Of a stretch of 28,263 nt of DNA, positions 281-27,853 are shown piece after piece. The first letter of the stretch is position 1. Each line of letters begins with the position of its first letter. Source of the DNA: a virus; IMG/VR virus record IMGVR_UViG_3300018420_000078, positions 1 through 28,263 of that record; one strand, 5' to 3'. The position numbers and the translations under genes are program-made. The notes beneath the pieces were generated by a model. The model was not told the origin of the DNA. It searched no databases and saw only the letters and a program-made list of their open reading frames with translations.

Positions 281-1954
281 ATGAAAACATTTAACGATTT
301 TAATATTGACGTCGGCAATAAAACAACCGGTAAAATCAAAACACAATGTCCGCAATGCAGTCAAACGCGCAAAAACAAACGCGACAAATGTTTGTCAGTT
401 GATATTGACAAAGGTTTATTTAATTGTCACAATTGCGGTTGGGCCGGAACAACAAAATTCGAAAAGAAAAAAGAATACATTCGTCCGCAATCCATAAAAA
501 TAAATTTAACCGAACGCGTTGTAAAATGGTTTGCCGAACGTGGCATTTCCGAACCTACATTGCAACATTGGAAAATTGGCGAATCATTGGAATATTTTCC
601 GCAAGTTGGAAAAAAGCGCCGCGCAATAAATTTCAATTATTACCGCGAAAACAATTTAGTTAATGTCAAATATCGTGACGGCCAAAAGAATTTCAAAATG
701 GTTTCCGGCGCTGAATTAATATTTTATGGTTTGGATAATATTAAAACAATGGAAAAAATTTACATTGTTGAAGGCGAAATTGACGCGTTGAGTTTACACG
801 AAGCCGGTATTTATTCAGTTTGTAGCGTTCCAAATGGCGCATCAAAAGGCAATCAACGATTAGAATATTTGGACAATTGTTTTGAATACTTCAAAGATAA
901 AACCGAAATAATACTTTGCACCGACAACGATTCGCCAGGAATTGAACTTCGAAACGAATTGTCACGACGTTTTGGTGCGTATCGTTGCAAATACGTCGAT
1001 TTTGGCGACTTTAAAGACGCAAACGAAATATTAATAACAAAAGGCGCCGAAGCGTTGCGAAACGTTATTAAAACGGCTAAAAACTTTCCATTAGAGGGCG
1101 TTTTGAATATAAACGATATTTGGGACAATGTTTTAAATTTTAACGAAAACGGCGTCAAAAATTATTCAATCGGTTTGCCAAACGCCGATACATTTTTTAA
1201 AATGGAATTGGGCCAATGGTCCGTTGTGACCGGAATACCAAATTCCGGAAAATCCGACGTAATGGATCAAATATGTTGTAATTTGGCGACGCGTTACGAT
1301 ATGCGTTGCGCTATGTTTGCGCCGGAATCATTTCCATACGAGGGCCACATTAAAAGAATTTCAAATAAATTAAACGAAACTAATTGCACCAACGAACAAT
1401 TAAATCAAACAAAAGATTTCATTCAAGACCATTTCTTTTGGGTTAAAATAGATTTGGAAAATTTAACGTTAAAAGGCATTTTAAATGCGTTTAAAGAATT
1501 AGTATTTCAAAAGGGAATAAATGTTTGTGTGATTGACCCATGGAATATGTTGGACCATTCAGCGCAAAAGGACCATTCCTATATTGGGCGCGCATTGTCA
1601 GAAATAACGCAATTTTGCCAACAAACAAACACACATTTGTTTTTGGTGGCGCACCCACGAAAAATTGAATCCGAAAACGGAAAATATAAAAAACCAACGC
1701 TTTATGACATCAGCGGTTCGGCCGACTTTTTTAATAAAGCATATAATGGTTTAATTGTTTACCGCTGCATTGGCGAACGCACAAAGTTTAAATCGGACGT
1801 TGTTAAAGTATACGTTGAAAAGGTTAAACGAAAAGAAAACGGCCAATTAGGCGAATTTGACATCGCGCCGGATTTTAAAAACGGCGGTATATACAAAGAC
1901 ATTGACCTGGAAACAAAAAAATTTGAAGTTATAACCGACGATTTACCTTTTTAA
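281..1954 (+). CDS. Bifunctional DNA primase-helicase (T7 gp4/Twinkle type)
   Basis: This 557-residue protein should prime and unwind DNA at the phage replication fork. Visible parts in order: a zinc-binding domain with C23-x2-C26 and C49-x2-C52; a TOPRIM domain with E165 in IVEGEIDAL and D215/D217 in CTDNDSPG; and a DnaB/RecA-like helicase core with Walker A TGIPNSGKS (317-325), a Walker B-like strand ending at D419 (VCVIDP) and a conserved VAHPRK strand near 456-461. The layout matches the T7 gp4 family, and the length is close to it. The protein ends in DDLPF, the kind of acidic tip known from single-stranded DNA-binding proteins and also present on the SSB-like protein at 24535-24771. ATG at 281 is the first good start. 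Confidence 0.93.
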   Translation: MKTFNDFNIDVGNKTTGKIKTQCPQCSQTRKNKRDKCLSVDIDKGLFNCHNCGWAGTTKFEKKKEYIRPQSIKINLTERVVKWFAERGISEPTLQHWKIGESLEYFPQVGKKRRAINFNYYRENNLVNVKYRDGQKNFKMVSGAELIFYGLDNIKTMEKIYIVEGEIDALSLHEAGIYSVCSVPNGASKGNQRLEYLDNCFEYFKDKTEIILCTDNDSPGIELRNELSRRFGAYRCKYVDFGDFKDANEILITKGAEALRNVIKTAKNFPLEGVLNINDIWDNVLNFNENGVKNYSIGLPNADTFFKMELGQWSVVTGIPNSGKSDVMDQICCNLATRYDMRCAMFAPESFPYEGHIKRISNKLNETNCTNEQLNQTKDFIQDHFFWVKIDLENLTLKGILNAFKELVFQKGINVCVIDPWNMLDHSAQKDHSYIGRALSEITQFCQQTNTHLFLVAHPRKIESENGKYKKPTLYDISGSADFFNKAYNGLIVYRCIGERTKFKSDVVKVYVEKVKRKENGQLGEFDIAPDFKNGGIYKDIDLETKKFEVITDDLPF

Positions 1955-10705: not shown

Positions 10706-10804
10706 ATGCTTTATTTTTAGGCGCCCAACAGATAAGAACGTAAAAAAAACAAAAAAAACTTTAAAAAAAAACTAAAAAAATTTTTTTAATTCTAAAATGT
10801 GTTA

Positions 10805-25793: not shown

Positions 25794-26174
25794 ATGGAAT
25801 TAGAATATTTAATTAAAAAAGTAAACAAACATTTTAATTGTGACATAACAATAAACACACGACAACGTGAAATTGTAATGGCGCGCGGCGCATTCTTTTG
25901 GCTTGCGAAACATACGAGTAAAAAATCAGTTAAAAAAATCGGCGCGGCGGTCGGTCGTGATCATGCATCGGTTCTTTATTGTTTAAAGAATTTCAACGAT
26001 TGGTTGAGGTTTGACGAATTTTTTAAAGGCGATTTTGAAAGTTTAAAAATCGCGGTTTTATCTGAATTCAAATCGGAAAAATTAACGCCACAATCAATGC
26101 TTTACAAATACAATTGTTTAGTTATTGAAAACGACATTTTAAAAAATGAAATTAAAAAATTAAAAAGATTATGA
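25794..26174 (+). CDS. Stand-alone DnaA C-terminal (domain IV) protein
   Basis: The protein has 126 residues. Residues 1-70 match the DNA-binding domain IV of DnaA: VNKHFNCDITINTRQREIVM, then SVKKIGAAVGRDHASVLYCL, with the GRDH signature at 54-57 that reads the DnaA box. No ATPase domain is present and the total length is a quarter of DnaA. The rest (about 75-126) is a charged helix. It may mark the phage origin, recruit host factors, or compete with host DnaA. It begins 7 bases after the exonuclease gene. Confidence 0.85.
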   Translation: MELEYLIKKVNKHFNCDITINTRQREIVMARGAFFWLAKHTSKKSVKKIGAAVGRDHASVLYCLKNFNDWLRFDEFFKGDFESLKIAVLSEFKSEKLTPQSMLYKYNCLVIENDILKNEIKKLKRL

Positions 26175-26314
26175 ATATAAAAATTAAAATAAAAGAGGTT
26201 AAAAAAGACCATTATGATTTGAGTTTAAAAACGTATAAACACGAATTGACCGGAACATTTGAAAAGGCGGAAATTCGAAACATTATTGAAAAATTAGACA
26301 ACGCAATTGTGTAA
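26171..26314 (+). CDS. Hypothetical small protein, 47 residues
   Basis: ATG 26171 overlaps the end of the DnaA-like gene (ATGA) and the stop overlaps the VRR-NUC ATG (TAATG), so it is clearly part of the operon. The product MNIKIKIKEVKKDHYDLSLK is basic with strand-helix character and no recognised family. Confidence 0.6.
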   Translation: MNIKIKIKEVKKDHYDLSLKTYKHELTGTFEKAEIRNIIEKLDNAIV

Positions 26315-26703
26315 TGGCGAATCCATACGAAAAATATTTAAAAGGTGAGGACAAATTGCAACGTGCAATTATTAATTATTTAGATATGCAATACCCAAAC
26401 GCCATATTTACGCACCCAATGAATGAGGGCAAAAGAACAAAATTCGAACAATACAAAATGAAGTATTTAGGCGCGAAACCTGGAATTCCGGATTTGCTTA
26501 TTTTTACACCAAACGCCGTTTTCAGCGGTTTAGCGGTCGAATTAAAATATAAATATAACAAACCTACGGACAGCCAAAAAAAGTGGCTTAAATGGCTTGA
26601 AAATTGCAATTGGGCGGTATATTGGACCAATGATTTTGACGATTGCGTTGAAGTCATTGACAAATACTTTAAAAATGAATTAAAAAACCAACCAAAAAAA
26701 TGA
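26314..26703 (+). CDS. VRR-NUC domain nuclease
   Basis: The protein has 129 residues. GAKPGIPDLLIFTPNAVFSG (D60) followed by AVELKYK (E77, K79), then TDSQKKWLKWLENCNWAVYW with Q88, is the VRR-NUC pattern. VRR-NUC enzymes are structure-selective nucleases, and phage forms are thought to cut branched DNA such as Holliday junctions. It would resolve recombination or replication intermediates before packaging. It lies in the replication cluster with overlaps to both neighbours. Confidence 0.88.
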   Translation: MANPYEKYLKGEDKLQRAIINYLDMQYPNAIFTHPMNEGKRTKFEQYKMKYLGAKPGIPDLLIFTPNAVFSGLAVELKYKYNKPTDSQKKWLKWLENCNWAVYWTNDFDDCVEVIDKYFKNELKNQPKK

Positions 26704-26968: not shown

Positions 26969-27853
26969 ATGGAAAACAAAAATTACTTCGCAATAATACC
27001 GGCGCCGGTGCGCTATTGTAAAGATTTAAAAGCAAACGAAAAATTAATGTACGGCGAATTGACAGCATTGTCAAATGACAAAGGGTTTTGTTTCGCGTCC
27101 AATGAATATTTTTCAAATCTTTACGACGTTTCAAAAACAAGTATTTCAAAATGGATTTCAAATTTAGAAAAGAACGGTTTCATAAAAATAAAAATGATTT
27201 ATGAACGTGGAACAAAGCAAATAAAACAACGCCGAATTTACATTGCACCCCTATTGAAGAAAAGTTCAATACCTATTGAAGAAAAGTTAAATACCCCTAT
27301 TGAAGAAAAGTTAAAGGATATATATATACTAACTAATAATAATAATATAAATAATAATAATAGTACAAAATCCAAAAAGCGCCAATATTCAGAAAAAACA
27401 ACAAAGGCGTTTTCGCATTTTGCAGCATTATTTCCTTTAAAATATAGGCCTAAAACGGACGCACAAAAAAATAAATGGTTGGATTGTTTGGATAAAATCG
27501 AACGTTTGGACGGCTACAATTTACGCGAGGTTTACAACGTTTCAAAAGAATTAAGGAATGACGAATTTTGGCAAAACAATTTTTTATCAATTCTTAAATT
27601 AAGAAATACCGACAAAAACGGAATTAAATACATTGATCGTTTTATGGTTCAGCACAAAGCAAAACAAAAGCCGGTTGGATTTACAAAAATAAAAGGGTTA
27701 AAAGAATTTTTTGTGTACAGAAATCCGGCAAGCGGTCAAAAAGAAATTGGCGCCAAAACTAAAAACGGCGACATTCACGAATTTCAAATTCGCGGTTTAA
27801 TGATGACAAACGAGTTCCAGGAATTAAAACAATTTGTGTTGAATGGTTTATAA
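26969..27853 (+). CDS. Replication initiator-like winged-helix protein
   Basis: The protein has 294 residues. Residues about 20-85 form a winged helix-turn-helix: LKANEKLMYGELTALSNDKG, then SNLYDVSKTSISKWISNLEK and NGFIKIK. This kind of domain is found in phage and plasmid replication proteins (HTH_36/DnaD-like organisers). A linker follows that is coded by DNA repeats and by an AT-rich tract, giving the poly-Asn run at about 120-130. The C-terminal part (about 140-294) is helical with a conserved-looking core FWQNNFLSILKLRNTDKNGI. As in lambda O, the gene seems to hold the origin within itself. It probably binds the iterons and loads the primase-helicase. Confidence 0.75.
   Translation: MENKNYFAIIPAPVRYCKDLKANEKLMYGELTALSNDKGFCFASNEYFSNLYDVSKTSISKWISNLEKNGFIKIKMIYERGTKQIKQRRIYIAPLLKKSSIPIEEKLNTPIEEKLKDIYILTNNNNINNNNSTKSKKRQYSEKTTKAFSHFAALFPLKYRPKTDAQKNKWLDCLDKIERLDGYNLREVYNVSKELRNDEFWQNNFLSILKLRNTDKNGIKYIDRFMVQHKAKQKPVGFTKIKGLKEFFVYRNPASGQKEIGAKTKNGDIHEFQIRGLMMTNEFQELKQFVLNGL
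27247..27312. repeat. Three iterons, candidate replication origin
   Basis: CCTATTGAAGAAAAGTT occurs three times without mismatch at 27250-27266, 27272-27288 and 27296-27312; two copies extend to ACCCCTATTGAAGAAAAGTT. The steps are 22 and 24 bases, about two helical turns. Because 22 is not a multiple of three, copy 1 is read in a different frame (PLLKKS) from copies 2 and 3 (PIEEKL), so the DNA, not the protein, appears to be conserved. Confidence 0.8.
27319..27363. other. Very AT-rich tract beside the iterons (possible unwinding element)
   Basis: Directly after the third iteron, TATATATATACTAACTAATA continues into AATAAT-type repeats with almost no G or C. It codes for the poly-Asn linker of the initiator-like protein. 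Such a tract beside iterons is where origins usually melt. Confidence 0.65.

Follow-up and report, generated by a model that had tools for sequence, protein, structure and literature searches.

Dyad iterons inside an HTH_36 initiator gene: a candidate phage replication origin and a proposed code for its recognition

The locus

The window (the whole stretch of 28,263 nucleotides that was analysed) carries an 83-base overlap between its ends, in agreement with its earlier description as a 28,180-bp circle. The features considered here are the following:

26969 to 27853, plus strand: gene of an HTH_36-type replication initiator of 294 aa (Pfam, PHROG and AlphaFold2 model)
27134 to 27172, plus strand: recognition helix, codons 56-68, KTSISKWISNLEK (modelled as a helix over 56-68; covariation with the half-site at residues 57, 58, 60 and 61)
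27247 to 27271, plus strand: iteron 1 (17-mer at 27250-27266; perfect dyad TATTGAA-GAAAAG-TTCAATA at 27252-27271; frame different from that of iterons 2 and 3)
27269 to 27293, plus strand: iteron 2 (17-mer at 27272-27288; dyad with 6/7 pairs at 27274-27293)
27293 to 27317, plus strand: iteron 3 (17-mer at 27296-27312; right arm degenerate)
27317 to 27366, no strand assigned: putative DNA unwinding element (lowest stability of all 50-mers in the genome; 90% A+T; codes for the poly-Asn linker)
281 to 1954, plus strand: primase-helicase, Toprim plus DnaB-like (PHROG 239 'DNA primase/helicase', 5e-88; Toprim_2, 3.8e-12)

The first-pass annotation had taken the gene at 26969 for a winged-helix replication gene, and three lines of evidence bear this out. 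The N-terminus (residues 19-72) matched PF13730 (HTH_36) in a Pfam search with 45.4 bits against a cut-off of 25, the protein matched the PHROG 'replication initiation protein' at 8e-30, and in the AlphaFold2 model a winged helix spans residues 7-95 and a helical C-terminal domain about 140-294, joined by a linker (96-136) predicted to be disordered. The structural neighbours at the top of the list for the winged helix included the RepA_N initiator DNA-binding domains 4pql, 4pt7 and 5kbj (Z about 9; for 4pt7 9.2 over 88 residues), with which the unrelated winged helix 3cta ties. Neither the RepA_N domain (PF06970) nor Phage_rep_O was found among the Pfam hits of the initiator at E up to 0.1, and its 'O-like' PHROG matches were weak (1e-9 or weaker). 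A lambda O structure was not among the best matches of the winged-helix structure search, which excludes nothing, and a search by sequence yielded no solved structure of an HTH_36 initiator of this kind.

The primase-helicase gene lies two genes downstream of the initiator, across the join of the circle, and is directly followed by a gene for a phosphoadenosine-phosphosulfate-reductase-like protein (1999-2853, PHROG 424). Other genes near the initiator encode a VRR-NUC nuclease that also matches a Holliday-junction-resolvase PHROG (26314-26703) and a small protein that consists of a DnaA domain IV (25794-26174; Bac_DnaA_C, 44 bits), possibly with a coiled C-terminal tail and without an ATPase domain, which might serve at the host origin either as a decoy or as a helper.

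Repeats and A/T tract in the window

A search of the whole window found exactly three copies of the 17-mer CCTATTGAAGAAAAGTT, all on the plus strand, and no further match when up to 3 mismatches were allowed, compared to 0.13 matches expected per shuffle and three reached in 0 of 100 shuffles. The exact copies start at 27250, 27272 and 27296, so that the three perfect 17-base repeats with steps of 22 and 24 nt that had been described are indeed present. They form the sole short-spaced repeat family with at least three copies in the genome, and a search for a second repeat cluster elsewhere in it found none. An array of A-runs with a period of 22 nt and 90% matches (10742-10784) is of low complexity and apparently intergenic. 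With respect to the ATG at 26969 the copies have frame offsets of 2, 0 and 0, which agrees with the earlier remark that the frame of copy 1 differs from that of copies 2 and 3, and the same bases thus encode PLLKKS in copy 1 and PIEEKL in copies 2 and 3. When codons were resampled synonymously with the protein kept fixed, a frame-shifted 17/17 repeat arose in 0.005% of 20,000 trials.

The nearly pure A/T tract that had been reported next to the repeats starts directly 3' of them, and by nearest-neighbour sum its 50-mer at 27317 has the lowest stability of all 28,180. It is this weakness that is unique and not the A/T content, in which several other tracts of the window equal or exceed 27317-27366. 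Repeats and tract together code for the disordered linker (residues 96-136), and the predicted disorder is consistent with the idea that the poly-Asn linker is a by-product of the DNA element.

The first-pass annotation had also proposed that an origin at this place would be accompanied by a switch in GC skew near 27.2-27.4 kb. Such a switch was absent: almost the entire circle has a positive skew, the cumulative skew rises throughout, and the extremes of the detrended skew lie at 14.7 and 22.4 kb with a range not beyond that of block shuffles (p 0.12). Since nearly all genes are on one strand the skew is uninformative, and it neither supports nor refutes an origin. DnaA boxes were limited to two isolated matches in the window, none of them near the repeats.

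The same design in related initiators

The relatives comprised 70 loci found in viral contigs via the whole protein, 80 loci each found in genomes and in viral contigs with an N-domain alignment as query, and 12 annotated phages. A unit was defined as CCTA or GGTA followed by five arm bases, six spacer bases (at least four of them A) and five further arm bases, so that units were picked by their anchor and A-rich spacer and symmetry played no part in the picking. At least one anchored unit was carried by 150 of the 162 distinct linkers or loci (348 units in total), in relatives from Bacillota, Bacteroidota, Spirochaetota and Fusobacterium phages. One of the collected loci comes from a contig in a Rhodobiaceae (alphaproteobacterial) genome bin (L084, NYTN01000016.1, 19158 bases); its length and locus range match those of the IMG/VR phage contig L168, the two N-domains are 85% identical, and the sequence is probably a misbinned phage.

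The A-cored units of the relatives are mostly dyads and occupy the same spot, between the winged helix and the A/T-rich linker. Examples are TATTAAAG-AAAA-CTTTAATA in locus L062, TATAGAAG-AAAA-CTTCTATA in locus L065, TTGACG-CAAA-CGTCAA in phage 77 and CATGAACA-AA-TGTTCATG in Butyrivibrio phage Ceridwen. Over the 348 units, 3.44 of 5 arm positions paired in register, compared to 0.7-1.8 at other offsets and 2.44 for arms combined across loci; for the 144 distinct arm pairs the mean was 2.75, against 1.87 after permutation (sd 0.07). The step from one unit to the next is mostly 22, 23 or 24 nt, and half of these steps shift the frame, with units in more than one reading frame in 73 of the 150 loci. 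Copies in different frames agree in 7.22 of 10 arm bases, whereas the agreement between loci is 5.03. The comparison with relatives that had been suggested as a check thus came out in favour of the repeats as DNA elements, in that the repeat bases change in concert across frames and loci that keep the DNA-binding domain keep the repeats.

The weak tract is likewise a general property. Across 149 loci, A+T makes up 82% of the 50 nt that follow the last unit and 69% of the sequence preceding the first, and in 91% of these loci the corresponding tract ranks in the lowest 5% of the neighbourhood 50-mers by stability; a weak A/T tract was found on one side of the units in 93% of loci. In L073-L083 and other Bacillota loci the text of the tract 3' of the last unit is nearly fixed across distant loci (AATAATACAAGTATTAATAATACA), which is more than a mere A/T-rich stretch would need, and this may be a sequence-specific single-strand binding site.

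Recognition helix and half-sites

We compared the consensus half-site of 132 loci, derived solely from units in which three or more of the 5 arm positions pair, with about 85 aligned residues of the N-domain in an unsupervised mutual-information scan. The highest values were obtained for K61 (arm position 5), T57 (positions 3, 5 and 2) and S58 (position 5), and the value of S60 with arm position 1 was also raised; all four residues lie within the recognition helix of the model. The relation at residue 61 is without exception among the loci with K or R and A or C, with K61 and A at arm position 5 in 46 loci and R61 and C in 51 (97/97). At residue 57, V or I goes with A at arm position 3 (25/25) and E with G (30/30), while T is found with G (26 loci) or A (5 loci). 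The window initiator, with T57, S60, K61 and TTGAA arms, agrees with this code.

Relatedness inflates the mutual information in such a scan. Nevertheless, pairs of initiators less than 55% identical outside the helix but with the same residues 57, 60 and 61 had identical half-sites in 71% of cases, compared to 3% for other such pairs, and pairs at least 65% identical with different residues at these positions in 6%, indicating that relatedness is not the sole cause of the covariation. In the best tree constructed without the helix columns, path-independent pairs agreed 8/8 and 7/7 times (one tie); the well-supported branches leave 2 independent pairs in all, so that a sign test restricted to them has no power.

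The code was then applied to a hold-out set of new loci, mostly from further viral scans and with few added by genome sampling. The exact half-site was predicted for 15 of 18, whereas a random choice gave 4% and taking that of the nearest relative 67%, and the K/R rule at residue 61 held in 21 of 23. Two hold-out loci, L325 and L326, share 86% identity with phage 77 and have V57 for E57 together with TTAAC for TTGAC. The 75 hold-out loci comprised 34 with a clear anchored dyad and 16 with anchored units without a dyad, the rest being 19 with strong repeats of another register, 5 scored as having none and 1 that was truncated.

Covariation of a recognition helix with the sequence of the repeats is the signature expected of binding. 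On this sequence evidence, the proposal that the winged helix of the initiator reads the half-sites of its own gene is strongly supported.

Exchange of the domain together with its repeats

Some relatives combine a C-terminal domain like that of the window (up to 97% identity) with a different HTH_36 N-domain, here called type B, and in their linkers the repeats of the window are absent and other, GC-rich symmetric repeats are found (GCGGT-TTTT-ACCGC and alike). A tree of the C-domain shows 8 changes of N-domain type, and well-supported branches force at least 4 of these. Each N-domain type is paired with its own repeats, and homology to the window resumes near or inside the A/T-Asn tract. The winged helix, the repeats and the tract therefore behave as a cassette: with the domain, the sites and the melting tract lying contiguously, a single recombination replaces the origin specificity as a unit. 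In the type B initiators L027-L049 the repeats (GCGGT/ACCGC) have a period of about 15 nt, compared to 22-24 nt in type A, and the geometry of binding may differ between the two types.

Interpretation

We consider it highly probable that the region 27247-27366 is the replication origin of this phage, located inside the gene of its own initiator. Initiator dimers would occupy the iteron array, the complex of dimers and array would strain and open the A/T tract beside it, and loading of the primase-helicase encoded just downstream, the likely recipient of the opened strand, could be assisted by the C-terminal domain. The origin function of the repeats is assigned by analogy with lambda O, TP901-1, SPP1, pSK41 and pPR9; the coevolution of helix and half-site speaks to site recognition and does not tell an origin from an operator.

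One rival is an intragenic operator, bound by the initiator solely to repress its own transcription or elongation, with the origin elsewhere. Autoregulation is common among winged-helix proteins, bound sites within the coding region 280 nt from the start might form a roadblock, and the GC skew leaves the site of the repeats unmarked. An operator has no need of the weak A/T tract that flanks the units in nearly all loci, however, the layout equals that of proven origins, and the genome lacks a second repeat cluster; the tract, the lone cluster and the precedents speak against an operator as the sole role, and we regard it as unlikely. Selection for a repeated peptide (PIEEKL) in the protein could explain why copies 2 and 3 encode one peptide and why 24-nt steps keep the frame in many loci, but not that copy 1 gives another peptide from the same bases, that copies in different frames are alike and frames are mixed within 73/150 loci, or that synonymous resampling destroys the repeats, and the linker is predicted to be disordered. 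The frame data refute it as the sole cause, in line with the earlier argument that a protein repeat cannot explain the conservation, and we give it practically no credence.

Two further readings appear very improbable. Each perfect dyad might fold into a short stem whose loop is rich in A, and covariation of the arms alone would fit an RNA as well, so that the dyads might act as hairpins in the mRNA; yet the stretch in the window folds no better than shuffles (z 0.13), an Rfam search of it gave no match, and the arm sequence is common to the copies beyond what pairing demands and covaries with the recognition helix. A role as a mere recombination hot spot for exchange of initiator modules would fit the swap breakpoints near or in the A/T tract and is rated equally low: it leaves the dyads, the fixed steps and the covariation with the recognition helix unexplained, and swapping follows naturally from the presence of an origin.

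More generally, HTH_36 initiators of several phyla are likely to share a simple predictive code, relating residues 57, 58, 60 and 61 to the five half-site bases of dyads in their own genes, and phages are likely to change origin compatibility by swapping winged helix, sites and melting tract as one cassette. A small number of model phages and plasmids were already known to have intragenic iteron origins, and pPR9 to carry a PF13730 module with an origin. What is added here is the extent: the same design, with its dyads and its step of 22-24 nt, was found in at least 150 distinct loci of several phyla, together with a code that passed the hold-out. The code and the multi-phylum extent were undescribed in the literature searched (open-licence papers), and the first-pass annotation had contained neither the symmetry of the dyads nor the joint swap of domain and repeats nor the code. 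If true, the location and specificity of the origin would be predictable from the initiator sequence in many uncultured phages, the origin design would explain the Asn-rich disordered linkers of HTH_36 initiator genes, and by cassette exchange phages may escape incompatibility, as the plasmid pPR9 did.

Comparison with known systems

Each iteron of phage lambda is a dyad with an A-rich centre. The layout of initiator gene, iterons and AT-rich region for which lambda O and plasmid rep systems had been cited is present here in all its parts. In lambda (O and ori-lambda) and in the Stx phages the origin lies centrally within the gene of the initiator, with iterons adjoining an AT-rich tract (PMC7466680), and the window likewise has its iterons and AT-rich tract within the initiator gene. 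The differences are that the window protein is of the HTH_36 type without Phage_rep_O, that there are 3 iterons versus 4 in lambda, and that a primase-helicase gene lies downstream where lambda has P.

In RepA_N of pSK41 the winged-helix N-domain binds Rep boxes central in rep, the linker coded by the origin is dispensable and the C-domain is separate (PMC5703833). The window initiator likewise has the repeats inside its gene, and RepA_N domains are among the best structural matches of its winged helix, in a tie with 3cta; it lacks a RepA_N sequence match, belongs to a phage and not a plasmid, and has another repeat sequence. In the natural pPR9/pUSA03 chimera about 500 bp (DNA-binding domain and origin) have been replaced by a phage PF13730 module on the pSK41 C-domain, and a pPR9 mini-replicon with this phage module replicates (PMC5703833). 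Plasmid pAT5 was considered as proof of the module as sole replicon and was rejected, a second annotated replication initiation gene being present.

Among phages, ORF13 of TP901-1 and Rep2009 of Tuc2009 (both from Lactococcus; PMC8965321) and gp38 of SPP1 at oriL (PMC6316719) are initiators that bind repeats in their own genes which serve as origin. With 2.4e-5 against PF13730, just under the cut-off, the Rep protein of TP901-1 is a borderline case of HTH_36; its C-domain is DnaB_2 and that of Tuc2009 is Rep_Org_C. The repeats of these systems differ from those of the window in sequence and spacing, and a search of TP901-1 and Tuc2009 for anchored dyads of the window type found none, their repeats being of another form. 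The HTH_36 initiators of Staphylococcus phage 77, Cellulophaga phage phi39:1 and similar phages have other half-sites (TTGAC or ACGACA.. versus TTGAA) and another C-terminal domain, but share with the window the same DNA-binding domain, the place of the repeats and the design with an A-rich core; beyond the repeats come an A/T tract rich in Asn codons and a gene for a helicase or helicase loader.
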